Assembly: GCA_028712895.1 (NCBI GenBank)
Contig: JAQTPL010000018.1
Coordinates: 1 to 37,307 of the forward strand
Source: a bacterium
GTDB lineage: Bacteria > CAYTYR01 > UBA6262
Reading direction: 5' to 3'
Length of the DNA: 37,307 nt
In this document: positions 4,026 through 25,608 of the stretch, one piece after another
How the letters are laid out: every line of letters begins with the position of its first letter
How positions within the stretch are numbered: the first letter of the stretch is position 1
Position numbers and translations under genes: made by a program
The notes under the pieces: generated by a model
The model's input: only the letters and a program-made list of their open reading frames with translations
What the model was told of the DNA's origin: nothing
Database searches by the model: none

Positions 4026-5008
4026 ACTATTTTTACCTCATCCTTGTTCCCTTTAGTTACCTGGCCGATGATGATCGAGCCCTTGAGCAGTGCTGAGACC
4101 CTGGGCACATCTTTTTCCGCGACGATCAGGACCAGGCCGATGCCCATGTTGAAAGTACGGTACATCTCTTTAAAAGGGACTTTTCCTTTTTCCTGCATAA
4201 CTACAAATACCGGCGGTATTTTCCAGTTTCCTTCCTGGATGACTACCTGGCAGTGAGCCGGCAAGATACGGGGAATATTATCCAGGAACCCGCCACCGGT
4301 AATATGGGCTATACCTTTGATGGCAGATGGCAGACGGCGGACGGCAGATAGTACTTCCTGCACATATATTTTCGTAGGTGCGAATAATTCTTTCTGATAT
4401 TTCTTTAATTCGCGGTCAGTGAATATTTTCCTGATCAGGGAATACCCGTTAGAATGCGGACCACTGGACGGCAGTCCCAGGACAATATCGCCGGGCCTTA
4501 TTTTTGAGCCGTCTATGATCTTGCTTTTATCAACTACCCCGACGACAAAACCAGCCAGGTCATATTCGCCGGCAGGATAAAATCCCGGCATTTCCGCAGT
4601 TTCCCCGCCGATCAGGGTGCAATTAGCCTGTTTACATCCAGCCGCGATTCCGCTGATCACCTGCGCCGCAATTTTGGGATCTAATTTCCCGCAGGCAAAA
4701 TAATCCAGGAAAAACAGCGGTTCCGCGCCGCACGTAATAATATCATTAACACTCATGGCTACCAGGTCCAGGCCTACAGTATTATGTTTGTTTAATAAGA
4801 ATGCCAGCTTTAATTTGGTACCTACACCGTCAGTGGAGGAAACTAATACCGGATGTTTGTATTTTTTAAATTTGCCGTCAAATAAAGCGCTAAATCCGCC
4901 GATATCCGCTATAACTTCAGGCCGCCTTGTTGCTTTAGCCAAAGGTTTGATCATTTCCACTAATCTTTCACCAGCATTGATATTTACACCTGCTTTACGA
5001 TAATCCAA
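4022..5008 (-). CDS. purM: Phosphoribosylformylglycinamidine cyclo-ligase PurM
   Basis: AIR synthetase, closing FGAM to AIR with ATP. 328 residues, slightly shorter than the usual ~345. The ATP-binding [12 protein letters not shown] lies at 59-70 and [11 protein letters not shown] at 134-144. The start is TTG with AGGAG about seven bases upstream. Residues 220-231 ([12 protein letters not shown]) are encoded by a degenerate 7-bp repeat (4319-4350) that replaces a variable loop just before the conserved [10 protein letters not shown], so the enzyme probably tolerates it. It is the first gene of the purM-purN-HD-GYP module, directly after hairpin H2. Confidence 0.96.
4319..4350. repeat. In-frame heptad repeat inside purM
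   Basis: On the plus strand this is GATGGCA GATGGCA GACGGCG GACGGCA GATAG, about four and a half 7-bp units. It is the same family as the three repeats in purL but in the opposite orientation relative to the gene, so it encodes [12 protein letters not shown] instead of DGRWQMAD. Neither orientation contains a stop codon in any frame. Confidence 0.85.
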
Positions 5009-5027
5009 AATTAACTCCTCGTTTTAC

Positions 5028-5110
5028 TAGCTCGTAGCTCTTAGCTCGTAGCTCGTAGGTATGGTTATTTTGTTTATTAATTTTTGCTATCAGCTATGAG
5101 CAATGAACTA
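5028..5110. repeat. Heptad-repeat hairpin H2, between pyrE and purM
   Basis: The left arm (5028-5058) is TAGCTCG TAGCTCT TAGCTCG TAGCTCG TAG. The right arm (5087-5110) pairs with it at 18 of 24 positions. The last three bases of the right arm are the pyrE stop codon read on the minus strand, so the repeat supplies the end of the gene. The AT-rich loop resembles that of H1. Confidence 0.85.
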
Positions 5111-5689
5111 AGTTGCTTTATTTCTGCTGCCTGGCTTAAAGAACGGCAACCCTTCCTTACACAAGGGACATTGCGCTGGTTCAAAAGTTTTAACCTGCAA
5201 TGGCAGCAGGTATTGGCTGGGAACGCCAAAGGAAATCTCTTTTTCACTGCGATTAATGATGGCTCCGACTCCCACTACTTTAGCCCCGGCCTGTTCAACT
5301 GTTGCCATGACTTCCTTAGTCGATCCTCCGGTCGTAAATACATCTTCAATGACGATCAGCTTTTCTCCGGGCGTAATACTAAATCCCCGGCGCAGGGTCA
5401 TTTGCCCGTCTTGCCGTTCCGTAAAAATAAAGCGCACTCCCAAAGCTTTAGCTACTTCATAACCGATGATCAAGCCTCCTAACGCCGGGCTGATCACTGT
5501 ATCAATGGACGATATTTTAAACTTTTCCGCCAAAGACTGTCCCAGTTTTTTGGCCAGCTTTGGATGCTGCAATACCAAAGCGCATTGCAGGTATCTTTCG
5601 CTATGCAGTCCACTGGACAATAAAAAATGACCTTTTAACAGGGCATTATTGTTTTGGAATATTTCAAGTACTGCTTGCGGTGTGATCAT
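5108..5689 (-). CDS. pyrE: Orotate phosphoribosyltransferase PyrE
   Basis: Joins orotate to PRPP to make OMP. 193 residues. The PRPP-binding loop IVIEDVFTTGGSTKE is at 112-126, and the substrate-binding TERQDGQMTLRRGF region precedes it. The C-terminus has the CPLCKEGLPFFKPGSR tail seen in one branch of PyrE proteins. The ATG overlaps the pyrF stop (ATGA), so it is coupled to pyrF. The stop codon TAG belongs to the right arm of hairpin H2. Confidence 0.96.
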   Translation of the reverse strand: MITPQAVLEIFQNNNALLKGHFLLSSGLHSERYLQCALVLQHPKLAKKLGQSLAEKFKISSIDTVISPALGGLIIGYEVAKALGVRFIFTERQDGQMTLRRGFSITPGEKLIVIEDVFTTGGSTKEVMATVEQAGAKVVGVGAIINRSEKEISFGVPSQYLLPLQVKTFEPAQCPLCKEGLPFFKPGSRNKAT

Positions 5690-6366
5690 CGTTCACCTAT
5701 ATCTTTTAATATGGCTAAGGTCGCGGCACGCACATCAGCTGCTTCCAGTACCGGTCTGCCGACTACAATAAAATCCGCTCCGGATTTAACTGCTTCAGCA
5801 GCGCTCATCGTCCTTTTCTGATCGTCGCTGCTTTTTTTGACCCGTACGCCCGGGGTTACAATGGTAAAAGTATCTCCCACCAGGGGACGGATCAGGCTGA
5901 TCTCCCGGGGCGAACAGATAATACCGTCAAGCTGGTTATCTTTAGCCATTTTGGCGAAAATACCGACCTGGTCTTTAACCGGGTTCCGGTAACCTATTTG
6001 TTTCAGGTTATCATCATTCAAGCTGGTCAGGACCGAGACTCCCCATAGCTGCGGCCTGGGTTGCACCGCGGCAGCAGCCAGCAGCATTTCCCTGCCTCCG
6101 ACGACATGCAAGGTCATTGACAGTACTCCCATTTTTTGCCCGGACTCCACAGCTTTGGCTACAGTATTAGGAATGTCATGCAGTTTAAGGTCCAGGAAAA
6201 CCTTGACCCCTTTATCCATGATCCTTTTAACAATATCCGGCCCAGCAGCAGTGAAGAGCTGCAATCCTACTTTAAAGATGTCAGTGATATCAGCCAGCTG
6301 GTCTACCAGCTTTATGGCTTTTTCCTGATCTTCTACGTCGAGAGCTACGATCAGCTTACTTAGCAT
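5686..6366 (-). CDS. pyrF: Orotidine 5'-phosphate decarboxylase PyrF
   Basis: Decarboxylates OMP to UMP. 226 residues with the catalytic Asp-Lys-Asp cluster in FLDLKLHDIPNT (Asp59, Lys61, Asp64) and the phosphate-binding VGRPVLEA near the C-terminus. The start ATG at 6366 lies 11 bases inside the 3' end of pyrD, and the stop overlaps the pyrE start, so translation is coupled on both sides. Confidence 0.97.
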   Translation of the reverse strand: MLSKLIVALDVEDQEKAIKLVDQLADITDIFKVGLQLFTAAGPDIVKRIMDKGVKVFLDLKLHDIPNTVAKAVESGQKMGVLSMTLHVVGGREMLLAAAAVQPRPQLWGVSVLTSLNDDNLKQIGYRNPVKDQVGIFAKMAKDNQLDGIICSPREISLIRPLVGDTFTIVTPGVRVKKSSDDQKRTMSAAEAVKSGADFIVVGRPVLEAADVRAATLAILKDIGER

Positions 6367-7270
6367 CTAAACTCCCTACTAGTTGTTTGAGTTGTCCGAT
6401 CTTATTATCTTTTATGTAGTGCTGTAATCCTTTAATGATATTGATGGGTATTTTAGGGTCCACGAAATTACCAACGCCCACGGCAATCGCACTGGCTCCG
6501 GTGATAATGAACTCCAGTGCGTCATTTAAATTCATTATGCCGCCCATTCCGATGACGGGTATCTTTACTGCTTTTTTTACTTCATATACTTTATAGAGGG
6601 CTTGCGGCTTGATCGCCGGGCCGCACAGACCGGCGACAATGTTCTTGAACACCGGTTTTTTGGTCTTCAGGTCAATAGCCATGGCATTGAACGTATTGAC
6701 TACGGCAATTGCCTCGGCCCCTGCTTTTTCACAAGCTTTGGCAATAATACCTATATCGGTTATATTTGGTGTCAGTTTAGCGATCACCGGTTTATGGCTG
6801 AGGCGCACTGCTTTCCTGATGATCTCGTAACTCAAGTCTTTATCCTGGGCAAATAATCCTTTTTTTGTGTGCTGGACATTAGGGCAGGAGATATTCACTT
6901 CCAGGGCGTCAAAAGTTTCTTTCTTTAGGGCTTGTGCCAGCTGGCAATATTCAGACACGCTCTCACCGGCTATACTGACGATCACCCTAGTGTCATATTT
7001 TTGCAGATAAGGTAATTTTTCATCGACAAAAGTAGCCAATCCGACATTTTGCAGGCCGATAGAATTAAGCAAGCCTCCCTGGGTTTCCCAGAGCCTGGGC
7101 TGGGGATTGCCCAGCCGGGGTTTCAAGGTTATGCTTTTGGTAACAATCGCTCCCAGCTCATTTAAGTCGATCAATTGGGCATATTCTTCACCATATCCAA
7201 AAGTGCCGCTGGCTACCATCACCGGATTTTTTAATTTAAGGGAACTTATTTTAACGCTTAGTCCATCCAC
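6356..7270 (-). CDS. pyrD: Dihydroorotate dehydrogenase, class 1B catalytic subunit PyrD
   Basis: Oxidises dihydroorotate to orotate in the cytosol. 304 residues with an FMN barrel, and Cys129 in NISCPNV as catalytic base, the class 1 feature (class 2 uses Ser). The adjacent pyrK shows it is the NAD-linked 1B type, which does not need a quinone or oxygen. The start is GTG at 7270, sharing one base with the pyrK stop (TAGTG). Motifs for FMN phosphate binding (GMGGI, SAIAVGVGNF) are present near the C-terminus. Confidence 0.96.
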   Translation of the reverse strand: MDGLSVKISSLKLKNPVMVASGTFGYGEEYAQLIDLNELGAIVTKSITLKPRLGNPQPRLWETQGGLLNSIGLQNVGLATFVDEKLPYLQKYDTRVIVSIAGESVSEYCQLAQALKKETFDALEVNISCPNVQHTKKGLFAQDKDLSYEIIRKAVRLSHKPVIAKLTPNITDIGIIAKACEKAGAEAIAVVNTFNAMAIDLKTKKPVFKNIVAGLCGPAIKPQALYKVYEVKKAVKIPVIGMGGIMNLNDALEFIITGASAIAVGVGNFVDPKIPINIIKGLQHYIKDNKIGQLKQLVGSLDAK

Positions 7271-8046
7271 TATAAAACTACCTCATTGGCATTAAATACC
7301 GGGCCATCTTTGCAGACCCGCAGGTATTCACCTTTGGTGCCTTTAACTACGCAGCCCATACAAGCGCCTATACCGCAGCCCATATGCTCTTCCAGAGAAA
7401 CTTCACAAGGAATGCGAAAATGCCGGCACAACTTGACCAGTTCACGCAGCATGGGCAATGGCCCGCAGGCATAAACCATGTTCGGATGAGTGCTGAAGAT
7501 AGCTACCATTTCCCGGAATAATTCAGTTACCAGACCGTGAAATCCCTGGCTACCGTCATCAGTCGCAACTTTTACCGTACAGCCTATTTTTTCTAAAGCT
7601 TCGGAACACAAAAGATCTTCTTTATTCCTGGCTCCGATGAGCACTATGGGAGCCTGATTATATTTATTCTTTAAGGTTGCTGCCAGAAAAGCCAGGGAAG
7701 CTATGCCAGTACCCCCTCCTACCAGGATGGCCTTGCCTTCGGTTAACGCATAGCCATGTCCCAAAGGACCGATCACATCGATCTTTTCCTGGGCTTTAAC
7801 CTGGGCCAGTTTTTCTGTCCCCCGCCCCACTACTTTATAGATTATTTCCAGGTGGCTGTCCTTGATCTGGTGAATGCTTAAGGGCCGGCGCAGCAGGAGA
7901 TCAAATCCTTTTTCTACCTTGATATTAAGAAACTGACCAGGCTTGGCTTTGGATGCCATACTTCTATTTTGCAGGACCAATTTATAATAATTGCTACAGA
8001 GCAGGTGATGGGCTACTACCCGGCATTTAGCCTGCAACAAGTTCAC
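7270..8046 (-). CDS. pyrK: Dihydroorotate dehydrogenase electron-transfer subunit PyrK
   Basis: Carries electrons from PyrD to NAD through FAD and a [2Fe-2S] cluster. 258 residues: FAD-binding RRPLSI at 53-58, NAD-binding GGGTGIAS at 110-117, and cluster cysteines 224, 229, 232 and 245 (GCGIGACMGC plus a later Cys). The open frame begins with GTG at 8046, but GGAGG directly abuts that codon. A TTG at 8040 sits six bases after GGAGG and is the better-spaced start, giving 256 residues. Either start lies inside the 3' end of pyrC (overlap 14-20 bases). Confidence 0.95.
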   Translation of the reverse strand: MNLLQAKCRVVAHHLLCSNYYKLVLQNRSMASKAKPGQFLNIKVEKGFDLLLRRPLSIHQIKDSHLEIIYKVVGRGTEKLAQVKAQEKIDVIGPLGHGYALTEGKAILVGGGTGIASLAFLAATLKNKYNQAPIVLIGARNKEDLLCSEALEKIGCTVKVATDDGSQGFHGLVTELFREMVAIFSTHPNMVYACGPLPMLRELVKLCRHFRIPCEVSLEEHMGCGIGACMGCVVKGTKGEYLRVCKDGPVFNANEVVL

Positions 8047-9319
8047 CCTCCGCCATACATATTCTTCCGCCGACTATGGTATAGACGGCAAAACCCCTCA
8101 ACGTGTAGCCAATAAAAGGAGAATTATTACTCTGGCTTTCAAAAGTTTCAATCTTCCGCTTGGTTTTAGTGTCAATGATGGTGATATCGGCATCAGCCCC
8201 GGGAGATAAGGTACCTTTGTTCAGCCCCAGGATGTGGGCTGGATTTACCGTCAGTTTTTTAATAGCTTCGCGCAAGGTCAGGACCTTTTTGTCCACCAGT
8301 TCAGTGATGACCAGGGGCAGCATAGTTTCTAATCCAATGATGCCAAACGGCGCTAATTCATATTCCTGGTTCTTTTCGTCTTCCAGGTGCGGGGCATGAT
8401 CGCTGGCGATACAATCGATCGTCCCGTCCTGCAATCCCTGTTTGATCGCCTGCACATCTCTTTTGGTGCGCAGCGGCGGGTTCATTTTGGTATTGGTGTT
8501 ATAGGTCTTGACTGCTTCATCAGTCAGGGTGAAATAGTGCGGCGCGGTTTCTGCGGTGATCTTGATATCCATGCGTTTAGCGCGCCTGATCATGCCAACA
8601 CTGCCTTCAGTCGAGACATGGGCAATATGCAAGTGCCCTCCGGTCATTTCCGCTAATTGAATGTCCCGGGAGACAATGACCTCTTCAGCTTGCCGGGGGA
8701 TCCCGCGCATACCCAGGATAGTAGATACATAACCTTCATTGATCAGCCCTTCGGCCGAAAGATTCTTATCTTCACAGTGAGAGATGACCGGTAATTTGAA
8801 CATTTTTGAATATTCCAGCGCCCGGCGCATAATGAGCGAATTTTCGACAGTCTTGCCGTCATCAGTAATCCCAGCGACCCCGGCTTTTTTCAGTTCCCCG
8901 ATGGGAGACATTTCCTCTCCCTGCAGGCCTTTGGTAATAGCGCCAATGGGGTAAATATTCACCCAGCCTTCTTTTTGGGATTTAGAGAGGATCAATTCTA
9001 CCTGCGCCTGGTTATCAGTTACCGGCTGGGTATTGGGCATGCAGCAGATGCTCGTAAATCCGCCTTTACAGGCGGCCCGTGTGCCGCTGGCAATGGTTTC
9101 TTCATCTTCCCGGCCTGGCTCGCGCAGGTGCGTATGCATATCGATCAAGCCGGGAGTAACTACTTTGCCCCGGGCATCAATGACCTTGACATTGGGCTTA
9201 TTCACTTTAATGCTTAAGCTGACTTTTTTAATGACGCCTTCTTCGATATAAATATCTTTTTGCGCATCGATCCGGTTTGCCGGATCAATTACCCTGCCGC
9301 CTTTGATCAGAATACGCAT
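8027..9319 (-). CDS. pyrC: Dihydroorotase PyrC (class I)
   Basis: Cyclises carbamoyl-aspartate to dihydroorotate. 430 residues, the length of class I enzymes. Zinc ligands are visible as His62 and His64 in DMHTHLREPG, Asp153, His181, His234, and the catalytic Asp307 in ASDHAPH. There is no sign of the carboxylated lysine of class II. The ATG follows the pyrB stop with no gap, and the gene runs into pyrK, so pyrB-pyrC-pyrK-pyrD-pyrF-pyrE is one tightly packed block. Confidence 0.97.
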   Translation of the reverse strand: MRILIKGGRVIDPANRIDAQKDIYIEEGVIKKVSLSIKVNKPNVKVIDARGKVVTPGLIDMHTHLREPGREDEETIASGTRAACKGGFTSICCMPNTQPVTDNQAQVELILSKSQKEGWVNIYPIGAITKGLQGEEMSPIGELKKAGVAGITDDGKTVENSLIMRRALEYSKMFKLPVISHCEDKNLSAEGLINEGYVSTILGMRGIPRQAEEVIVSRDIQLAEMTGGHLHIAHVSTEGSVGMIRRAKRMDIKITAETAPHYFTLTDEAVKTYNTNTKMNPPLRTKRDVQAIKQGLQDGTIDCIASDHAPHLEDEKNQEYELAPFGIIGLETMLPLVITELVDKKVLTLREAIKKLTVNPAHILGLNKGTLSPGADADITIIDTKTKRKIETFESQSNNSPFIGYTLRGFAVYTIVGGRICMAEGELVAG

Positions 9320-10261
9320 TTATTCACCTTCCTCCACTTTTTCCGCACCACCAGCCAGCAGGTACAAAACTGCCATCCTGATGGCAATACCATTGGTTAC
9401 CTGTTCAGTGATCACAGAGAAACTGCTGTCTGCTACTTCGCTGGATATCTCGATACCACGGTTCATCGGGCCGGGATGCATGACAATCACATCTTTTTTG
9501 CATTTTTTCAAGCGGTCCATATCAATGCCATATAATTCACTGTATTCCCGCAATGACGGGAAGAGGTGCTGTTTTTGCCGTTCACGCTGCACCCGCAGCA
9601 CATAGATCACATCAGCATGTGGTAAAACATCATCCAGTTTATAAGCTACTTTTACTTTCAGGTTTTCGATGTGCGAGGGAATAAGCGTTACCGGCCCGAC
9701 TACGGTTACTTTCGCTCCCATTTTGGTTAAGGCCCAGATATTGGACCGGGCCACCCGGGAGTGCAGTATGTCGCCTACGATCACCACATTCTGGTTCTCT
9801 ATTTTCCCTTTTTTATCCCTGACGGTAAAAAGGTCAAGCAGCGCCTGCGTCGGATGCTCATGCATGCCATCGCCGGCATTAATGATACTGGCGCTAATGG
9901 TGCGGGCTAGTAAGTGCGGCGCACCGGCCATGCTATGGCGAATGACCACAAAGTCAGCTTTCATCGCTTCGATGGTCTTGGCCGTATCGATCAGGCTTTC
10001 ACCTTTGACGATGCTGGAAGTGTTTACCGAGATATTAAGAACATCTGCGCTTAATCTTTTTTCAGCTAATTCGAAGGAGGTTCTGGTCCTGGTAGAGGGT
10101 TCATAGAAAAGGTTGACTACCGTTTTACCGCGTAAGGTGGGAACTTTTTTAACTGAGCGGGTAAAGATTTCCTTAAAAGGTACCGCTGTATCCAGAATTA
10201 ATTTGATCTCTTCGGGAGTAAGCGTTTCGATACCGAGCAGATTCCTATCTTTTAGTCTCAC
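9320..10261 (-). CDS. pyrB: Aspartate carbamoyltransferase catalytic subunit PyrB
   Basis: First committed pyrimidine step, joining carbamoyl phosphate to aspartate. 313 residues with the carbamoyl-phosphate loop STRTRTSFE at 56-64 and the HPTQALLDL block. The start is GTG at 10261 behind a strong AGGAGG eight bases upstream. No pyrI regulatory subunit gene is nearby, so the enzyme is probably an unregulated trimer. pyrR lies 21 bases upstream; that gap is too short for an attenuator. Confidence 0.96.
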   Translation of the reverse strand: MRLKDRNLLGIETLTPEEIKLILDTAVPFKEIFTRSVKKVPTLRGKTVVNLFYEPSTRTRTSFELAEKRLSADVLNISVNTSSIVKGESLIDTAKTIEAMKADFVVIRHSMAGAPHLLARTISASIINAGDGMHEHPTQALLDLFTVRDKKGKIENQNVVIVGDILHSRVARSNIWALTKMGAKVTVVGPVTLIPSHIENLKVKVAYKLDDVLPHADVIYVLRVQRERQKQHLFPSLREYSELYGIDMDRLKKCKKDVIVMHPGPMNRGIEISSEVADSSFSVITEQVTNGIAIRMAVLYLLAGGAEKVEEGE

Positions 10262-10282
10262 CCGTAAGACCTCCTTTTGACC

Positions 10283-10840
10283 TTACGTACTCATCTGTTC
10301 ATTCAGCGTGACCTGGTCCTGCTGGTCTATTTCCTTGAAATTCACGCTGACCATTTCGGCTTTTGAAGTTTTAAATACTTTGCCGCAAAAATCAGCCTGG
10401 ATCGGCAATTCCCGGTGGCCCCGGTCAACCAGTACGGCCAACTGGATGCTTTTCGGGCGGCCGAAGTCAATGATCTCATCCAAGGCTGCCCTGATGGTAC
10501 GGCCGGTGAATAACACATCGTCTACCAGGATAATGTTCTTCTCCTCGATATGGAACGGTATCTGGGTTTCTTTGACCAGCGGCATCTCGGACAAGCTGGT
10601 AAAATCATCGCGGTACAAAGTTATGTCCAAAACCCCGATCGGGATGATCTTATGTGATATCTTCTTGATCTCAGCAGCCAGGCGCTCGGCCATGAAAACC
10701 CCCCTGGTCCTGATACCGATTATCACCAGGTCTTTGGTGCCATGGTTTTTTTTGATTATTTCTACAGCCAACCGTTTAATGATGTTGGTTATTTCATTCT
10801 TGCTCATGATCACTTTTTTAGTTTTATAGACAGTAGTCAT
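10283..10840 (-). CDS. pyrR: PyrR-type uracil phosphoribosyltransferase / pyrimidine regulator
   Basis: 185 residues of the PyrR family, which in Firmicutes binds leader RNA in response to UMP and also has uracil phosphoribosyltransferase activity. The PRPP loop [13 protein letters not shown] is at 103-115, and the [15 protein letters not shown] region is typical. The ATG overlaps the purE stop (ATGA). It sits exactly where it would in a pyr operon, yet I found no recognisable PyrR anti-antiterminator hairpin in the short pyrR-pyrB gap or before purE. It may act elsewhere or only as an enzyme. Confidence 0.93.
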
Positions 10841-11301
10841 TTCCTGCTCCTGGAGGTTAACCTTTTTTTAAAGGCTCTTAATTTATTTTTCAGAGCCTGG
10901 TTATTAATAGCTAATATCTGGCAGGCCAGTATAGCCGCGTTTTTGGCTCCATTAATGGCCACGGTAGCAACCGGTACGCCATTGGGCATTTGCACTATGG
11001 AAAGCAGGGAATCCAGTCCTCCCAGATCCTTAGTTTTGATCGGCACACCGATGACCGGCAGCTGGGTATAAGCGGCGATCACTCCCGGGAGATGAGCTGC
11101 TTTGCCGGCACCCGCGATAACTACTCCAAATCCATTCCTCTCAGCGTTGCCGGAGAAATTAGCTACTGCTTTAGGAGTACGGTGTGCAGACATAACTTTT
11201 AATTCATAGCATATACCAAACTCTTTCAGTGTTTTGGCAGCCTCATTCATGATTTCCAGGTCAGATTCACTGCCCATAACTATAGCCACTTTATACTTCA
11301 T
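10837..11301 (-). CDS. purE: N5-carboxyaminoimidazole ribonucleotide mutase PurE
   Basis: Converts N5-CAIR to CAIR. 154 residues from the ATG at 11301, which has GGAG seven bases upstream; a TTG at 11313 would add four residues but lacks a ribosome site. SAHRTP at 38-43 is the class I form (class II enzymes have SAHK), so a PurK partner is expected, but purK is not in this window. The P-loop reads [10 protein letters not shown] at 64-73, with Lys where many class I enzymes have Gly. purE opens the purE-pyr module after hairpin H6, and its stop overlaps the pyrR start. Confidence 0.95.
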
Positions 11302-11346
11302 TTTCTTCTCCAATACTATACTTAACTGGTAATCCTATCTCTGTCT

Positions 11347-11414
11347 GGACTCCAGACTTTAGACACCAGACACCAGTTTTGATCTGGAGACTTGAATCTG
11401 GTTTACTGGAGTCC
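11347..11414. repeat. Heptad-repeat hairpin H6, between purD and purE
   Basis: The arms at 11347-11376 and 11384-11414 are built of AGACNCC-type 7-bp units (AGACTTT, AGACACC, AGACACC). The loop is seven bases. The right arm enters purD: its last codons and TAA stop (Gly-Leu-Gln-stop) are read from repeat sequence. A T-run follows on the plus strand only. Sequence family differs from H1-H5 although the design is the same. Confidence 0.75.
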
Positions 11415-12734
11415 TTTTTTTCCGATATCTTTGCGCCATTGGGCACCTTCAAACTTGATCAACGGCACAGCTTTATAAGCGCGGTCAATCGCCTCCTGCA
11501 GGGTGCTTCCCGTCGCTGTGACTCCTAAAACCCTTCCACCTGAGGTGACTATCTGGGAGCGGTCATATTCTATAAGTCCCTGGGCTGTCTCTTTTTTCGG
11601 GAAATCGGTCCCGGCATGAAAAACTATAATTTCAGGCATAGCCGCGGCCTGTTCCAGGCCGGTTACCACCTTACCCTTACTGTATCCCCCGGGATAACCT
11701 GAGCTGGCCATGATCACGCTCACACAATGTTTCTGTTCCCATTCAATCTTAATTTCTTTGAGTTTACCCAGATTTGTGTACTCCATTATTTTCAAAATAT
11801 CGGTTTTCAGAAGCGGCATAATAACTTGTGTTTCAGGATCCCCAAACCTGACGTTATATTCTAACACAAAAGGGTCGCCGTTGACAATCATTATTCCAAC
11901 ATAGATGACGCCGCGGTATAATATATTTTCCTTTTTCAAACCGGCAATAGTTGGGGTTAATACCTTTTCCCGTATTTTCCGGTGTAAATCGTCAGCCAGC
12001 TTAGTAACCGGGGCATAACACCCCATCCCTCCGGTATTAGGTCCCTGGTCATCATCGTAGATCCGTTTGTGGTCCTGTACCGGGACCATCGGTACAATGG
12101 TATCGCCGTCGGTAAAACAGAGTATCGAAGCCTCTTCCCCGCCGATGAATTCTTCAATCACGATCTTGTCTCCGGCGCTCCCAAACACTTTTTTTAGCAT
12201 GATCACATCAACAGCTTTTTCCGCTTCCGCCAAGGTATGGCAAATGATCACCCCTTTTCCCGCGGCCAGCCCATCTGCTTTGATCACTATGGGATATCCC
12301 TGCTGGCCATGCGGATTACTGAATTTAGGGTTTTTAATGAAATCCAGGGCTTGCTTGGGCGACGAGAATATTTCAAAACTGGCGGTAGGGATACTGCTTT
12401 TCTGCATAAATATTTTAGCAAAAGCCTTACTGCCTTCCAGCTGGGCGGCGGCTTTATTGGGGCCGAATACACGAAAATTCTTTTTTTCAAAATAATCAAC
12501 AAAGCCTTTGATAAGCGGGGCCTCTGGCCCTACTATGATCAAACCAATATTGTTATTTTTGCAATACTTTTCTATGATTGGGAAATCGTCTACAGGCTTA
12601 TCGACACATTTGGCCAGCTGGGAGATCCCGGCATTTCCCGGGATACAGAATAGTTCGGTTGTGGCCGAACTTTGCTTTAATTTCCAGATTAAAGCATGTT
12701 CCCTTCCTCCGCCGCCGATCACGAGTATGTTCAT
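11403..12734 (-). CDS. purD: Phosphoribosylamine-glycine ligase PurD
   Basis: GAR synthetase, an ATP-grasp enzyme joining glycine to phosphoribosylamine. 443 residues. N-terminal VIGGGGREHAL at 5-15, ATP-grasp KADGLAAGKGV at 152-162, and the metal-binding EYNVRFGDPE block towards the C-terminus. The ATG has GGAG seven bases upstream and follows purF by 13 bases. The last residues (GLQ and stop) lie within hairpin H6. Confidence 0.97.
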   Translation of the reverse strand: MNILVIGGGGREHALIWKLKQSSATTELFCIPGNAGISQLAKCVDKPVDDFPIIEKYCKNNNIGLIIVGPEAPLIKGFVDYFEKKNFRVFGPNKAAAQLEGSKAFAKIFMQKSSIPTASFEIFSSPKQALDFIKNPKFSNPHGQQGYPIVIKADGLAAGKGVIICHTLAEAEKAVDVIMLKKVFGSAGDKIVIEEFIGGEEASILCFTDGDTIVPMVPVQDHKRIYDDDQGPNTGGMGCYAPVTKLADDLHRKIREKVLTPTIAGLKKENILYRGVIYVGIMIVNGDPFVLEYNVRFGDPETQVIMPLLKTDILKIMEYTNLGKLKEIKIEWEQKHCVSVIMASSGYPGGYSKGKVVTGLEQAAAMPEIIVFHAGTDFPKKETAQGLIEYDRSQIVTSGGRVLGVTATGSTLQEAIDRAYKAVPLIKFEGAQWRKDIGKKGLQ

Positions 12735-12747
12735 TTTGATCTCCTGC

Positions 12748-14103
12748 TTATTTTATCGGGTAGTCGTCAGTAAAACAGGCGCAGCAAAAATTAGCGGCCG
12801 AGATATTAGTCGCTTTAAGCAGTCCTTCCAAACTCAGGTAATGCAGGCTATCTACCCCTAAATATTTCTTAATTTGCTTCACCGTATTGTTGCTGGCGAT
12901 CAATTCTTTTTTATCCGGTGTGTCAATGCCATAAAAACAAGGGCCTATTATCGGCGGGGAGCTGATGCAGAGATGGACCTGCTTGGCCCCGGCCGCGTAC
13001 AACATCTTAACCAGCTTCCTGGAGGTGGTCCCACGGACTATCGAGTCATCGATCACGACAACCTTTTTGTTTTTCAGTACTTCCCTGACCGGATTATATT
13101 TGATCTTGGCGCCGAAATCGCGTATCTGCTGGTCAGGCTCGATAAAAGTGCGGCCAATATAATGGTTGCGGATCAGGCCGGTTTCAAACGGGATACCAGA
13201 CTCTTCGGCGTAACCTACAGCCGCGCTGTTGGCGCTGTCAGGAACTGGTATGACCAGGTCTGCCTTGATCCTGGTTTCCCGGGCTAACTGCTTTCCGTAT
13301 TCACGTCGGACCAGGTGCACATTACGCCCGAAAATATAGCTGTCAGGACGGCTAAAATAAATAAATTCAAAAATACACATGGCTGATTTTTTCTCATGGG
13401 CAAACTTAATGCTTTTCAGTCCCTTATCCGTGATGATCAGTAGTTCACCCGGCTCAATATCACGTATATATTTAGCATTGATCAGGTCTAACGCGCAGGT
13501 TTCGCTGGCTAAGACGTAAGCCTCGCCTAATTTTCCCAGGCATAGCGGCCTGACGCCAAAAGGATCGCGGGCGGCGATCAGCGTATCCGGAGTGCTGAGC
13601 AGCAGGGAATATGCGCCTTTGACCTGCTGCAGGGATTTGACAACCGCTTCGGCGAGAGGAACTCCGTTAGCTTTGGCAATGAGATGCAAAATCACTTCGG
13701 TATCACTCGTGCTTTGAAAAATTGATCCTTCTTTTTCCAAGCGGGCCCTGATCATATCAGTGTTGGTCAGATTGCCGTTATGGGCAATAGCCATTTGTCC
13801 CTTGGCGTACTTGATCAACAGCGGTTGGGCATTTTTTAAAAAGCTCATGCCGGTTGTTGAATACCGGTTATGGCCGATAGCCAGGTAGCCAGGCAGTTTA
13901 TCGAGAGTATCGCGGCTAAAAATATCAGATACTAATCCCATGCCTAAATGGGGATACATCTTTTGGCCGTCGCCCGTGACAATACCGGCTGACTCCTGGC
14001 CCCGGTGTTGCAGGGAATACAAACCAAGATAGGTCAGGCGGGCTGCTTCAAGATGACCATAGATACCGAATACTCCGCATTTTTCATTTAATTTGTTTAG
14101 CAT
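12748..14103 (-). CDS. purF: Amidophosphoribosyltransferase PurF
   Basis: Commits PRPP to purine synthesis using glutamine. 451 residues. The glutaminase nucleophile is Cys9 after a short propeptide (MLNKLNEK removed on maturation, as known for this family). The PRPP loop VVVIDDSIVRGTT is at 348-360. Cysteines 243, 389, 440/441 and 443 match the [4Fe-4S]-binding positions of the Bacillus-type oxygen-sensitive enzyme, consistent with an anaerobic host. Start ATG with GAGG upstream. It lies between purQ and purD. Confidence 0.97.
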   Translation of the reverse strand: MLNKLNEKCGVFGIYGHLEAARLTYLGLYSLQHRGQESAGIVTGDGQKMYPHLGMGLVSDIFSRDTLDKLPGYLAIGHNRYSTTGMSFLKNAQPLLIKYAKGQMAIAHNGNLTNTDMIRARLEKEGSIFQSTSDTEVILHLIAKANGVPLAEAVVKSLQQVKGAYSLLLSTPDTLIAARDPFGVRPLCLGKLGEAYVLASETCALDLINAKYIRDIEPGELLIITDKGLKSIKFAHEKKSAMCIFEFIYFSRPDSYIFGRNVHLVRREYGKQLARETRIKADLVIPVPDSANSAAVGYAEESGIPFETGLIRNHYIGRTFIEPDQQIRDFGAKIKYNPVREVLKNKKVVVIDDSIVRGTTSRKLVKMLYAAGAKQVHLCISSPPIIGPCFYGIDTPDKKELIASNNTVKQIKKYLGVDSLHYLSLEGLLKATNISAANFCCACFTDDYPIK

Positions 14104-14163
14104 ATGTCCTCTTTTTATATTTTTGCCGTCAAACAGAATTACGCGGATAATCCTTTTAGCTAT

Positions 14164-14973
14164 TTATTTTCCAGTTTCTAGTACATAATTGACTGCGTTA
14201 ACAAAAATAGCTAGTCCGTCGCCAGCTTCCGGCAGTTTTTTCCTAGTCCACTGGGGATGATTATATTTGGTTACGTGCCGTTCCGGGTGCGGCATCAAGC
14301 CAAAAACATTTCCTGCAGGGTTACAGATACCGGCAATATTTTCCACAGAGCCGTTAGGATTAAAGGGATATACTGCTTTGGTCCCTTTTTTATCAACATA
14401 CTGCAATACGATCTGTCCATTCTTTTTCAGCCGGTCCATTACTTCTTTATCCTTAGGAATAAATTTACCCTCTCCATGTGCCACCGGCAAATAGATGATC
14501 TTTTTAATCCCTTTGGTCCAAAGGCATTTGACCCGCGACCCGCGACCCGCGACTGGTGACTTTAAATACACCCAGCGATCTTCGAATTTTGCCGAATCAT
14601 TAAAACTTAAAGTCGCTTCCAGTTCCTGATCTATTGTTTCAAACCCGGGCAGCAGCCCAGATTTTACTAATACCTGGAAGCCGTTGCAAATGCCGATAAC
14701 CGGTTTGCCACTGGCAGCAAACGCACGTATCTGTTCATATAACTTATAGCGAAGTTCATTGGCTAATACCTTGCCGCTGGCTATATCATCGCCATAGGAA
14801 AAGCCCCCGGGTATCGCCAGGATGCTGAAATCATTTAATTTAGCCTCACCTTCGATAAACCTGTTGATATGTACCCGCTGCGGCTCTCCGCCAGCCAGGC
14901 TGAAAGCCTGCGCAGTTTCCATATCACAATTGGTCCCTGCTGTCCGTAAAATTAATACTTTTGGTTTTTTCAT
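14164..14973 (-). CDS. purQ: FGAM synthase glutaminase subunit PurQ
   Basis: Supplies ammonia to PurL. 269 residues, longer than the ~227-residue Bacillus form. The nucleophile is Cys96 in GICNGFQVL, and the His-Glu pair lies in MPHPERH near the C-terminus. Residues 139-149 (SPVAGRGSRVK) are encoded by a 7-bp tandem repeat that replaces a variable loop. No strong ribosome site precedes the ATG. The 65-base gap to purL holds a short hairpin and a 12-base direct repeat. Confidence 0.95.
   Translation of the reverse strand: MKKPKVLILRTAGTNCDMETAQAFSLAGGEPQRVHINRFIEGEAKLNDFSILAIPGGFSYGDDIASGKVLANELRYKLYEQIRAFAASGKPVIGICNGFQVLVKSGLLPGFETIDQELEATLSFNDSAKFEDRWVYLKSPVAGRGSRVKCLWTKGIKKIIYLPVAHGEGKFIPKDKEVMDRLKKNGQIVLQYVDKKGTKAVYPFNPNGSVENIAGICNPAGNVFGLMPHPERHVTKYNHPQWTRKKLPEAGDGLAIFVNAVNYVLETGK
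14530..14560. repeat. In-frame heptad repeat inside purQ
   Basis: Three perfect tandem copies of GACCCGC (14530-14550) followed by a decayed unit, GACTGGTGAC. Read on the minus strand it encodes SPVAGRGSRV. No stop codon occurs in any of the six frames of this heptad. It is a different sequence family from the purL and purM repeats but has the same 7-bp period and the same in-gene placement. Confidence 0.85.
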
Positions 14974-14978
14974 AGTTT

Positions 14979-15030
14979 ATCCGTGTAATCCCTGTCCGCC
15001 TCTGGCGGATCTTTTTAAATCTGTGCAATC
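14979..15030. repeat. Short hairpin flanked by 12-base direct repeats, purL-purQ gap
   Basis: A hairpin TCCGCC-TCT-GGCGGA (14995-15009) is flanked by ATCCGTGTAATC (14979-14990) and ATCTGTGCAATC (15019-15030), which match at 10 of 12 positions. A T-run follows the hairpin on the plus strand only, so it is unlikely to terminate purL transcripts. It fills nearly the whole purL-purQ spacer and looks like another small dispersed repeat. Confidence 0.6.
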
Positions 15031-15038
15031 GTATTTAG

Positions 15039-17453
15039 CTACCATTTAAGAGTCCCCCGCCAGGCTTCTTTGAGCGCCGTAATAGTTTCTTTAATAATGT
15101 TCTTATCCTTTAATCCTTTAACGATAAAATTCTTTTCAGACTTTATCTTACCGATACAACAAAAACTTGTCCCAATCATAGCTTTTTCAAAAGCTTTGGC
15201 TTTCTTTGGTTCTACCTCAACTATGAACCGCGAATTACTTTCTGAAAACAGGATAGTTGTATCGTTCTTATCTTTATCTGCCATCTGCCATCTGCCATCT
15301 GCTAACTTTATCTCCATCCCCAATCCTCCAGCAAAAGCCATCTCCGCTGCAGCTACAGCCAAGCCGCCCTCACTGAGATCATGACAAGAACATACCAGTT
15401 TCTGGGAAATAGCATTGCCGAGGGAGATCATCAGCGCCCTGGCTTTTAAGAAGTCAACCTTGGGAACATTATTGCCAAGATGACCAGATAAGGCAAAGTA
15501 TTGTGAACCGCCTAATTCATTATATGTGTCTCCCAGCAGATAAACCAGGTTATTGTTTTGCTTGGCATCCATGGTCAAACTATTACGAACGTCATCGACT
15601 ACTGAAATAGCGGAAATAAGCATGGTTGGAGCGATGGATATGGATTTCCCTTTTAGCGAGTACTCATTATTCAAACTGTCTTTACCGCTGATGAAAGGAG
15701 TCCCATAAGCCATTGCCGCGTCGTAACAGGCTTTGGCTGCCCTGACTATTCCGCCTAGTTGTTCTTCTTTATTAGGATTACCCCAGCAGAAATTATCCAG
15801 CAAGGCAGTCTTTTGCAGGTCGCCGCCTACGCAAGTGATGTTACGTAGGGCTTCGTCTATAACGCTCGCTGTCATCCAATATGGATCGATCAACCCCAAC
15901 CGCGGATTGATGCCGTTGGCTATGGCAAATCCTTTCCAGGAATTCAGGTCCGGCCTGTTTACAGCTGCATCGCTTGGCCCATCATTATCAGCGCCGGTTA
16001 AAGGTTTAATTATACTGCCGCCCTGTACTTCATGGTCATATTGACGGATGATCCACTCTTTACTCGCCACCGTCGGCAATGCAAGGATCTTTTTTAAGGT
16101 TATTCCTAATTTGTTTTTTCCGCCATCTGCCACCTGCCGTCTGCCATCTGGTTCTTTATGCTTCACTTCTTTCCAGACCGCTTTACGGGTATATTTCGGT
16201 ACTCCATTATGGAGAAAGTCCATATCCAGGTCAGCCACTTTGTCTGGCCCGTAATAAAGCTCCAGGTTATGAGTAGCGGTAAATTCACCGATAACCGTGG
16301 CTTCAACATTCTCATCGTTAAATATTTTTAAGATGGCGGTCAGGTTCCCGGGAGGAACCGCCAGGACCATCCTTTCCTGGGACTCGCTAATCCATATCTC
16401 CCAAGGCAACAGGCCCTGGTATTTTAAAGGTGCCTTATCCAGGTATACTTTAGCTCCGCATTCTTCGCCCAGTTCCCCTACGGCTGAAGAAAATCCGCCA
16501 GCTCCGCAATCAGTGATCGCATTGTACAGTCCGGCGTCACGAGCCTGCAGCAATGCATCGGTTACCTTCTTTTCAATGATCGGATTACCGATTTGCACAG
16601 CAGATATTTCCGTGTCTTTATCTAATTCAATGGAAGAAAAAGTTGCTCCATGAATGCCATCCCTGCCGGTTCTCCCGCCCACCGCCAGCACCAGGTCTCC
16701 GGCACTGACTTTTTTATCAATATACTTCTTGGGCATAATGCCGACAGTACCGCAAAAGACTAAAGGATTATAAATAAAGCTTTCCTCGAAAATTACTGCG
16801 CCATTAGCAGTCGGAATACCCATCCGGTTGCCGTAATCACGGACTCCTGATACCACGCCTTTAGCAATTCTTTTAGGGTGTAAAATATGTTCGCTTATAG
16901 AACTGAACGGTGTCTCTGGCGGGCCAAAACAAAACACATCTGTATTTATAACCGGCTTGGCTCCAAGCCCTACCCCTAAAATGTCCCGGATCACCCCGCC
17001 GATACCGGTACCGGCTCCGCCATACGGTTCCAATGCCGAAGGGTGATTATGGGTTTCGACCTTGAAAGCCAGGGCATTATCCTGGTCAAAATCAATAACC
17101 CCGGCATTATCCTTAAAGACTGAAAGGCACCACGGCAGATTCAGCTCTTTCGTTGACCTTATCACCGTCTGTTTTAACAGATTATCGATTGTTTCTGTCT
17201 GCCATCTGCCATCCACCGTCTGCCGTCTGTATTCGATCACTCCCCTTAGGGTTTTATGTTTGCAGTGTTCGCTCCAGGTCTGGGCCAGTGTTTCCAGCTC
17301 TACATCCGTAGGATCACGCCGTAATTTCCGGAAATATTCCTGTATAGTTTTCATTTCCTGGATGTTCAAAGCCAGTAAGTTAACCGAGGAAATGGTGAGA
17401 AGTTCTCCGTCAGTTTTATTCAGGATCCCGATGATCTTAACTTCATTAGGCAT
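15039..17453 (-). CDS. purL: FGAM synthase large subunit PurL
   Basis: ATP-dependent amidation of FGAR, acting with PurQ and PurS. 804 residues, longer than the usual ~720-750 of the small-type PurL. SEHCKHKT is at 61-68 and the glycine-rich ETHNHPSALEPYGGAGTGIGG at 133-153; a second AIR-synthase-like half follows QYDHEVQ. I chose the ATG at 17453 (MPNEVK), overlapping the purS stop by eight bases; a TTG at 17489 is less likely. Three separate loops carry in-frame AGAYGGC heptad repeats, at residues about 75-88, 434-445 and 717-727. All conserved motifs outside them look intact. Confidence 0.96.
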   Translation of the reverse strand: MPNEVKIIGILNKTDGELLTISSVNLLALNIQEMKTIQEYFRKLRRDPTDVELETLAQTWSEHCKHKTLRGVIEYRRQTVDGRWQTETIDNLLKQTVIRSTKELNLPWCLSVFKDNAGVIDFDQDNALAFKVETHNHPSALEPYGGAGTGIGGVIRDILGVGLGAKPVINTDVFCFGPPETPFSSISEHILHPKRIAKGVVSGVRDYGNRMGIPTANGAVIFEESFIYNPLVFCGTVGIMPKKYIDKKVSAGDLVLAVGGRTGRDGIHGATFSSIELDKDTEISAVQIGNPIIEKKVTDALLQARDAGLYNAITDCGAGGFSSAVGELGEECGAKVYLDKAPLKYQGLLPWEIWISESQERMVLAVPPGNLTAILKIFNDENVEATVIGEFTATHNLELYYGPDKVADLDMDFLHNGVPKYTRKAVWKEVKHKEPDGRRQVADGGKNKLGITLKKILALPTVASKEWIIRQYDHEVQGGSIIKPLTGADNDGPSDAAVNRPDLNSWKGFAIANGINPRLGLIDPYWMTASVIDEALRNITCVGGDLQKTALLDNFCWGNPNKEEQLGGIVRAAKACYDAAMAYGTPFISGKDSLNNEYSLKGKSISIAPTMLISAISVVDDVRNSLTMDAKQNNNLVYLLGDTYNELGGSQYFALSGHLGNNVPKVDFLKARALMISLGNAISQKLVCSCHDLSEGGLAVAAAEMAFAGGLGMEIKLADGRWQMADKDKNDTTILFSESNSRFIVEVEPKKAKAFEKAMIGTSFCCIGKIKSEKNFIVKGLKDKNIIKETITALKEAWRGTLKW
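15278..15305. repeat. In-frame heptad repeat 3 inside purL
   Basis: Sense strand: AGATGGC three times plus AGATAAA, encoding LADGRWQMADK at about residues 717-727. It lies in a variable loop before the conserved LFSESNSRF strand. Confidence 0.88.
16121..16150. repeat. In-frame heptad repeat 2 inside purL
   Basis: Sense strand: AGATGGC AGACGGC AGGTGGC AGATGGC, encoding EPDGRRQVADGG at about residues 434-445, in the linker between the two halves of PurL, just before the conserved SKEWIIRQYDHEVQ. Confidence 0.88.
17195..17231. repeat. In-frame heptad repeat 1 inside purL
   Basis: Sense strand units AGACGGC, AGACGGT, GGATGGC, AGATGGC, AGACAGA encode YRRQTVDGRWQTET at about residues 75-88. The segment sits in the loop following HCKHKT and before ETIDNLLK, which is a short variable turn in other PurL proteins. 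Confidence 0.85.
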
Positions 17454-17928
17454 ATTTTTCAGCTGCTCCGATAAAATAATCTTGCACAATAGTATTAGCC
17501 AGTAATTTAGACGCTATACTTTCCGCTTCCCTGGCTTGCAGCTTACCATAAACTATGTATTTTACGCCAGTGTGCACCGTGATCTGCGCCGGCTGGAAAC
17601 CAAGATCCCTGACCCCGGTAATCAAGGTATCTGCCACCGCGTCAGTGACCCCTTTTTTGAACCACACTTCGATCACGAAATGCTTTTCGCTGGCTGCCGC
17701 ATCGATGGTTTTATTGATGACATATTCTTGAGTGATCGGATCGATCAGTAATTTACAGCAAAGATCATCGATTTGGGCAAAATTTAAGTCGGCGTCTATT
17801 TTATATATCTGCACCGACTTAATTTTAGAAACTTTGCTTATCCCCAGATCGTGAATATCCTTGTTGATACTTTCACCGAGGGCGTCAAGGATATTATCCT
17901 TATAGCCGACTTCTATAATATATTGCAT
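17446..17928 (-). CDS. purS: FGAM synthase subunit PurS, two PurS domains in tandem
   Basis: PurS is normally about 80 residues and bridges PurQ and PurL. This protein has 160 residues and two PurS-like halves, about 1-78 and 82-160. Each half has an opening IEV strand, a DLG turn (DLGISKV, DLGFQPA), a YxIDADL / KYIVYGKL strand and a closing LL(I/A)(D/N)xI(T/V)Q(E/D)Y motif. In the Thermotoga-type complex two PurS chains serve one PurL, so a covalent tandem would supply both. It starts four bases after purC and overlaps purL by eight bases. Confidence 0.93.
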   Translation of the reverse strand: MQYIIEVGYKDNILDALGESINKDIHDLGISKVSKIKSVQIYKIDADLNFAQIDDLCCKLLIDPITQEYVINKTIDAAASEKHFVIEVWFKKGVTDAVADTLITGVRDLGFQPAQITVHTGVKYIVYGKLQAREAESIASKLLANTIVQDYFIGAAEKYA

Positions 17929-18817: not shown

Positions 18818-18833
18818 TAAAACTCCTTGAGTT

Positions 18834-18918
18834 TTAGCTCTTAGCTCTTAGCTCGAAGCTCATAGGAAATGGTTTTAAGATTTTACTACCAGCTATGAAC
18901 TATGAGCTACCAGCTGTT
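18834..18918. repeat. Heptad-repeat hairpin H3, between guaA and purC
   Basis: The left arm (18834-18865) is TTAGCTC TTAGCTC TTAGCTC GAAGCTC ATAG. The right arm is 18886-18918 and the loop 20 bases. It is the same TAGCTCN family as H1 and H2, and the loop edge (TAGGAAATGG) resembles that of H2 (TAGGTATGG). It ends four bases from the guaA stop codon. Confidence 0.83.
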
Positions 18919-20448: not shown

Positions 20449-20464
20449 GCAAAAACCCAATGTA

Positions 20465-20545
20465 GCGTTTAGCGTATGGCGTATAGCGTATAGAAAATCA
20501 AAATATTTTATTCTTTCTATACGCTACCCGCTACCCGCTATCCGC
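20465..20545. repeat. Heptad-repeat hairpin H4, between guaB3 and guaA
   Basis: Arms of 32 bases at 20465-20496 and 20514-20545 pair at 25 of 32 positions around a 17-base AT-rich loop. The units are TAGCGTT, TAGCGTA, TGGCGTA, TAGCGTA in the left arm. The right arm, on the minus strand, reads TAGCGGG, TAGCGGG, TAGCGTA. Confidence 0.88.
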
Positions 20546-20549
20546 CGAT

Positions 20550-21710: not shown

Positions 21711-21741
21711 TCCGTTTCCCTCCAGTTTTATTTTTAATCAA

Positions 21742-21795
21742 TTATGAGTTTTGAATTAAGGTAAAAAGCTTTTCACCTAAACTCAAAAATAATAA
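21742..21795. repeat. Loop-free palindrome H7, between dut and guaB3
   Basis: Two 27-base arms meet at 21768/21769 with no loop and match at 22 of 27 positions. Units of AACTCAAAA / TTTTGAGTT type recur here, and another copy (AACTCAAAAC) follows to about 21812. It is AT-rich, unlike the other hairpins, and occupies half of the 109-base gap. Confidence 0.75.
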
Positions 21796-21819
21796 CTTAT
21801 AACTCAAAACTTCTTTCAA

Positions 21820-25530: not shown

Positions 25531-25540
25531 GCTCTAAATC

Positions 25541-25608
25541 GGCGTTTAGCGGATAACGTATAGGGCAAGATAGAATAAATCTATCCGCTATACGCTCTAC
25601 GCTATACA
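25541..25608. repeat. Heptad-repeat hairpin H5, between the thioredoxin-like gene and nrdG
   Basis: A less perfect inverted repeat with arms near 25541-25563 and 25581-25608, made of TAGCGTA-type units as in H4. The right arm contains the TAG stop codon (25602-25604) of the thioredoxin-like gene. An upstream reading frame runs through the repeat, so the gene ends because a repeat unit supplies the stop. Confidence 0.75.

Follow-up and report, generated by a model that had tools for sequence, protein, structure and literature searches.

Tandem repeats of seven nucleotides have been described in Calothrix and, with the unit GGGNATC, in Xanthomonas and Nostoc; heptanucleotide repeats are over-represented in many bacterial genomes, without a detailed explanation having been given (PMC4692102). 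The cyanobacterial STRR and GGGNATC heptamers are 7-bp tandem units, present in many copies per genome and in excess between genes. The same is true of the arrays described here, which we analysed starting from a 37,307-nucleotide stretch of bacterial DNA (the window), contig 25 (1–37307) of the source genome G000 (1.93 Mb, 75 contigs). Unlike those published heptamers (PMC4692102), the present arrays comprise many units, are lineage-specific, form two-arm elements and recur in the loops of essential enzymes, among them PurL, PurM and PurQ.

The purine genes of the window are all on the minus strand, and PurL, PurQ, PurM, PurF, PurD, PurC and PurS were identified by NCBIfam (E-values of 1.2e-185 for PurL and 4.6e-128 for PurM). 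Arrays were located with Tandem Repeats Finder, after which their DNA and peptides were read directly; both bear out the original prediction of in-frame 7-bp arrays with defined peptides in purL (three times), purM and purQ. In purM, coding-strand TCTGCCG/TCTGCCA units at 4319–4349 encode a 12-residue stretch, while GTCGCGG units at 14530–14553 in purQ encode GRGSR, within VAGRGSRVK of the protein. In purL, loop 1 contains AGACGGC/AGATGGC units (17198–17229; RRQTVDGRWQT within residues 87–98), loop 2 contains AGATGGC (16122–16150; PDGRRQVADG, residues 447–456) and loop 3 contains GCAGATG (15276–15302; ADGRWQMAD, residues 730–738), all given for the coding strand. An AlphaFold model of PurL (mean predicted local distance difference test score, pLDDT, 85.3) places the loop 1 array at the tip of a predicted beta hairpin (pLDDT about 90), the loop 2 array in a low-confidence linker (51–74) and the loop 3 array in a predicted loop (about 86).

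A period scan, independent of Tandem Repeats Finder, was run on genome samples of 192 kb and 514 kb, with other periods and dinucleotide shuffles as controls. The smaller sample contains 15 period-7 arrays, against 0–3 for each other period from 4 to 21 at one threshold, and its dinucleotide shuffles contain none at period 7. The 514 kb of G000 contain 49, against 0–9 each for periods 5, 6 and 8–13; period 14, a multiple of seven, gives 16. The scan and the shuffles rule out chance or low complexity as the source of the arrays. The heptad phenomenon is real and wider than first described. Using gene calls made by a simple longest-open reading frame (ORF) rule, which may have assigned some arrays wrongly to "gene" or "edge", 30 of the 49 arrays are intergenic and 7 are at gene edges, though the sample is 92% ORF, so arrays are over-represented between genes. 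The commonest units in this sample are ACGCTAT, AGATGGC, AACTCGC, AACTATC and AAAACTT. Genome-scale counts rest on whole-genome pattern searches together with sampled stretches. Small samples of a class-level relative, G004 (42 kb), and of three more distant genomes (29–57 kb each) yielded 0–1 arrays.

Whole-genome searches provided three closer relatives: two congeners, G001 and G002, with PurL identities of 86% and 83%, and G003, a member of the same family (77%). Loop 1 of PurL is encoded by AGACGGC units in G001, CGGACAG in G002 and AGATGGC in G003, and loop 3 by GAAGCTG, GCAGCTG and GCAGATG/GCAGTTG, respectively. In loop 2, AACAATC (G001 and G002) or GCGAGTC (G003) is found where G000 has AGATGGC. 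The purQ site holds GTCGCGG in G000, GACGCAC in G001, ATCAAAT in G002 and no heptad array in G003, and in purM all three relatives carry ATACGCT heptads exactly where G000 has CTGCCAT, with the length unchanged. Despite these changes of unit, none of the reading frames is interrupted in any of the four genomes, and differences in length are multiples of three. Across the in-gene sites sampled, an array is kept in 41 of 47 directed pairwise comparisons, and in 23 of those 41 the unit differs at three or more of its seven letters. Sites thus persist across sister genomes while their units are exchanged. This comparison also agrees with the proposal that the loops are variable.

The exchange takes two forms. 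At PurL loops 1 and 3 and in PurM, arrays of species with different units are 56–86% identical in register and at most 44% out of register (for the PurM array alone, 56–58% versus at most 32%), and loop 1 of G001 includes a single copy of the unit type that makes up the array in G002. At PurL loop 2 and in PurQ, in-register identity between species is near chance, and the whole array has therefore been swapped or altered beyond recognition. Between genes, some arrays are nearly letter-identical in G000 and G001 (window position 25581; L155:10818), others are of a different family in the same place, in both arms (L169:3871 and L169:18557); turnover is therefore uneven. Orthologous intergenic sites are empty in relatives in 22 of 48 comparisons.

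The same PurL loops are occupied far beyond this family. A scan based on the four-species PurL alignment retrieved 80 named PurL loci, which belong to Omnitrophota, Elusimicrobia/Endomicrobia, Planctomycetota and others and have at most 62% PurL identity; near records may be left out. In 92 PurL genes there are 30 period-7 arrays, compared with 0–6 for periods 5, 6, 8, 10, 11 and 13, and the windows of the three loops account for 26 of the 30 (p = 1e-19); outside this family the fraction is 12 of 16 (p = 2e-8). Omnitrophota, Endomicrobia and Planctomycetota have arrays in these three loops as well, built from other units. Same-site arrays occur in loop 1 of L056, L060, L062, L065, L071 and L118, in loop 2, beyond the relatives, of L110 and L130, and in loop 3 of G001–G003, L063, L065, L067 and L075. 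Loop 1 is 24 residues long in several repeat-free genes and 33–64 with repeats: 33 in G000, 46 in L056, L060 and L065 (units GCAAATC, AAAATCC and AAATCCC) and 64 in L071 (Endomicrobiales). These lengths, with the missing PurQ array of G003, document the gain and loss of loops for which an alignment with close relatives had been suggested. In L071 a full two-arm element, AGCGGAT...ATACGCT (10232–10313), is read through in frame, as is AATGCGG...AATCCGC in purL loop 2 of L130 (Gemmataceae). The original prediction had counted conservation of the loops in distant relatives, with unrelated DNA, as evidence against it; the PurL loops do recur there, but the unrelated DNA is often again a 7-bp array. 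We located no earlier account of heptad arrays returning to corresponding enzyme loops in different phyla, with partial coverage of the literature.

Repeats of another kind were seen in and near purL: a palindromic repeat, TCCGCCAAAGGCGGATCAGCCTCTGGCTGA, in loop 2 of G001 (L007), a TGTCATCCTGAG...CTCAGAATGACA palindrome in loop 3 of L062 and, between purL and purQ of the window (14990–15012), a copy of CCGCCTCTGGCGG. The PurL loops, which thus hold other palindromic repeats too, look like landing places for repeats in general.

The hosts of in-gene arrays are ordinary housekeeping enzymes. Apart from the purine genes, arrays are found in ORFs identified as ArgJ, NadC, a phosphohexomutase and a DegT-type aminotransferase, and AGATGGC arrays in ORFs of PcrA/UvrD, an M20-type amidohydrolase, ThiL, HisH, PrmC, CCA nucleotidyltransferase, TsaD, TldD and QueA. 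In a RecN ORF (L262) the array lies upstream of where the family match begins and may therefore not belong to the protein. Antisense AGATGGC arrays at L005:1486–1516 and L266:1539–1566 encode hydrophobic runs (ICHLLSAICLYA and LLLSAICHPPSAF), and the N-terminal stretches of these two ORFs, which are partly such antisense readings, look like signal peptides. The PurS ORF of the window (17446–17928) encodes 160 residues with two PurS-like stretches and is perhaps a fused tandem PurS.

Most intergenic elements consist of two inverted heptad arms flanking a short AT-rich loop, whereas in-gene arrays usually have a single arm: an inverted partner is present within 100 bp for 51 of 79 noncoding arrays and 4 of 37 in-gene ones. 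In the window, Tandem Repeats Finder and direct reading gave intergenic two-arm elements of the TAGCTCN family at 24–95 (at the contig edge), 5022–5110 (RNA fold z = -4.3) and 18830–18905 (z = -2.2), and of the TAGCGKN family at 20460–20548 (z = -7.0). A gene-edge TAGCGKN element with both arms is located at 25540–25608; its right arm recurs in G001 with hardly a letter changed. Beside hisH, AGATGGC too makes up a two-arm hairpin between genes (L269:1957–2044, z = -5.7). Four in-gene arrays that were folded gave z between -1.1 and +1.3. In G000–G003, AG-pyrimidine is present in the left arms of 47 of 51 elements (e.g., window positions 5028, 18834 and 20463) and in the right arms of 5 of 51. 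Left arms also look richer in G and T than right arms. Inter-arm loops are mostly unrelated within a family; intergenic AAGTT-type elements (window 21720–21810; L169:16574; L167:940) seem more alike in their centre (AGGTRAAAAGC...TTTACCT) than those of other families.

Unit families burst by lineage. In G000, G001, G002 and G003, whole-genome searches found 1, 100, 0 and 13 matches to RGTTNCG and 35, 43, 31 and 0 to TAGCGKN, with zero for the reversed controls; AGAYGGC dimers (at most one mismatch) number 84, 12, 5 and 22, against 20, 6, 6 and 4 for the controls. Units are shared within genomes more than between them (p = 0.0035).

The original prediction had placed stop-free units in genes and TAG-bearing units between them, as two separate compartments. 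AGAYGGC and GACCCGC are indeed stop-free in every frame on both strands, and TAG-bearing families are intergenic within the window. That separation breaks down in the relatives and genome-wide: the ATACGCT of the three purM genes is the reverse complement of the TAG-bearing intergenic family (GCGTATA/ATACGCT). In the sampled genomes, 24 of 37 in-gene units, counted from the unit list, recur with at most one mismatch in intergenic arrays. Together with the AGATGGC hairpin, these cases rule out a strict rule and leave a bias. When stop content was compared by location, 21 of 37 units in genes were stop-free on both strands, against 15 of 82 outside (p = 6e-5). However, 44% of random heptads are stop-free too, so genes, at 57%, are not clearly enriched (p = 0.14), and we reject the idea that avoidance of stops drives the choice of units inside genes. 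Most of the contrast is due to stop-rich intergenic units, of which 18% are stop-free on both strands, a depletion relative to random heptads (p = 1e-6). The bias is accounted for by purifying selection, which picks strand and phase.

The arrays are probably best explained as heptanucleotide tandem repeats akin to the cyanobacterial ones, dynamic by lineage and genome-wide, which permissive loops can accommodate and which are subject to filtering by purifying selection. Heptad arrays would form a rapidly turning-over class, mostly two-arm between genes and usually single-arm inside them. In-gene arrays would survive only at places where the protein can bear a few extra residues, as in the PurL, PurM and PurQ loops and in signal peptides, and only in a stop-free phase, length and strand, other states being removed by purifying selection. 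Change in place would proceed by the spread of a variant unit through an array with the register kept (PurL loops 1 and 3, PurM), presumably by slippage or conversion within arrays; by the other route, an entire array seems to give way to one of another family (PurL loop 2, PurQ and several intergenic sites). Some copying between loci may cause the lineage bursts, which are hard to square with purely independent drift of each array, and the heptad loops would be nearly neutral in the enzymes. Several points weigh against this explanation. Simple slippage explains neither the 7-bp step nor the copying of families between loci, and it offers no explanation for the AG-pyrimidine arm polarity. The in-register identity may have been raised by selection on the protein, and the in-gene comparisons are not independent, because the sites are few and both directions were counted.

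The bursts could also come from a mobile palindromic element, like the Rickettsia palindromic elements or miniature inverted-repeat transposable elements, whose two-arm form transposes, occasionally into genes, where an arm or the whole survives in frame. The whole elements within purL of L071 and L130 and the many intergenic sites that are empty in relatives fit such an origin. However, no fixed element ends were seen, the free unit positions vary copy by copy, and the purM unit family was switched without a change in length. The mostly unrelated inter-arm loops also argue against transposition and lead us to reject copy-paste of whole elements. We consider a mobile element unlikely. The intergenic DNA of the relatives is too diverged to define empty-site junctions or target-site duplications.

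If the intergenic elements instead had a function as RNA or DNA signals, acting as terminators, attenuators or arrays that bind proteins, and their consensus were selected, the in-gene arrays would be by-products, which is compatible with the repeat dynamics favoured above. The strong folding of three of the four two-arm elements, the fixed arm polarity and family consensuses with free positions, such as RGTTNCG and TAGCGKN, speak for such signals, but the element is missing at many orthologous intergenic sites of the relatives and no binding factor was identified. We regard this role as improbable. Similarly little weight is given to a dedicated heptad-writing process, in which many loci would receive their 7-nucleotide units, some positions fixed and others free as in RGTTNCG and TAGCGKN, always with the same AG-pyrimidine polarity, from a lineage-specific template or recognition factor; were that factor to change, existing arrays would be re-written, those in enzymes included. 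Phase variation, in which changes in 7-bp copy number would toggle the purine genes, is highly improbable: each copy gained or lost in an ORF shifts the frame, but the arrays are short (3–4 copies) and often degenerate, and the frames are open in all four genomes, with length differences that are multiples of three.

In several phyla, heptad arrays unrelated to one another fill the same PurL loops, and families come and go between congeners. The birth, spread and exchange of heptad arrays can thus be followed at sites that are fixed and can be aligned, and repeat DNA is shown to supply conserved enzymes with new loops again and again.

Several described systems share part of this behaviour. 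The Class I/II heptads in P6b of the Nostoc tRNA-Leu(UAA) group I intron (PMC4476775, PMC3488679) are likewise degenerate 7-nucleotide repeats whose arms pair as a hairpin, and one class has repeatedly been replaced by another at the same site. They occupy a single site in a cyanobacterial intron RNA, neither dispersed nor protein-coding, whereas the present arrays are both intergenic and in ORFs. The TAACTGA repeats of marine Beggiatoaceae (PMC4679880) are dispersed heptamers whose orientation in ORFs is limited by stop codons, and they provide a published precedent for selection on strand and phase. They differ in having one fixed unit, in being direct repeats (with one indirect case) and in lying mostly just upstream of start codons; their in-gene cases are mainly at protein ends. 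Rickettsia palindromic elements (PMC10969869), to which the original prediction had drawn a loose parallel, are in-frame repeat DNA in unrelated metabolic genes, compatible with the fold. The parallel extends to in-frame presence inside unrelated ORFs, but those elements are about 150 bp long, with conserved sequence and peptide, whereas here only the 7-bp period is conserved, and units and peptides differ per species. The tandem repeats of archaeal Borgs (PMC9879509) are also fast-evolving, of independent origins and present both between genes and in ORFs, but inside genes they translate into perfect tandem repeats of amino acids, often in proteins that are extracellular or in the membrane; the present arrays instead have a frame-rotating 7-bp unit, in cytosolic enzymes. 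As the main units differ from published ones such as GGGNATC, the arrays described here are a variant of heptanucleotide repeats that falls outside those families.

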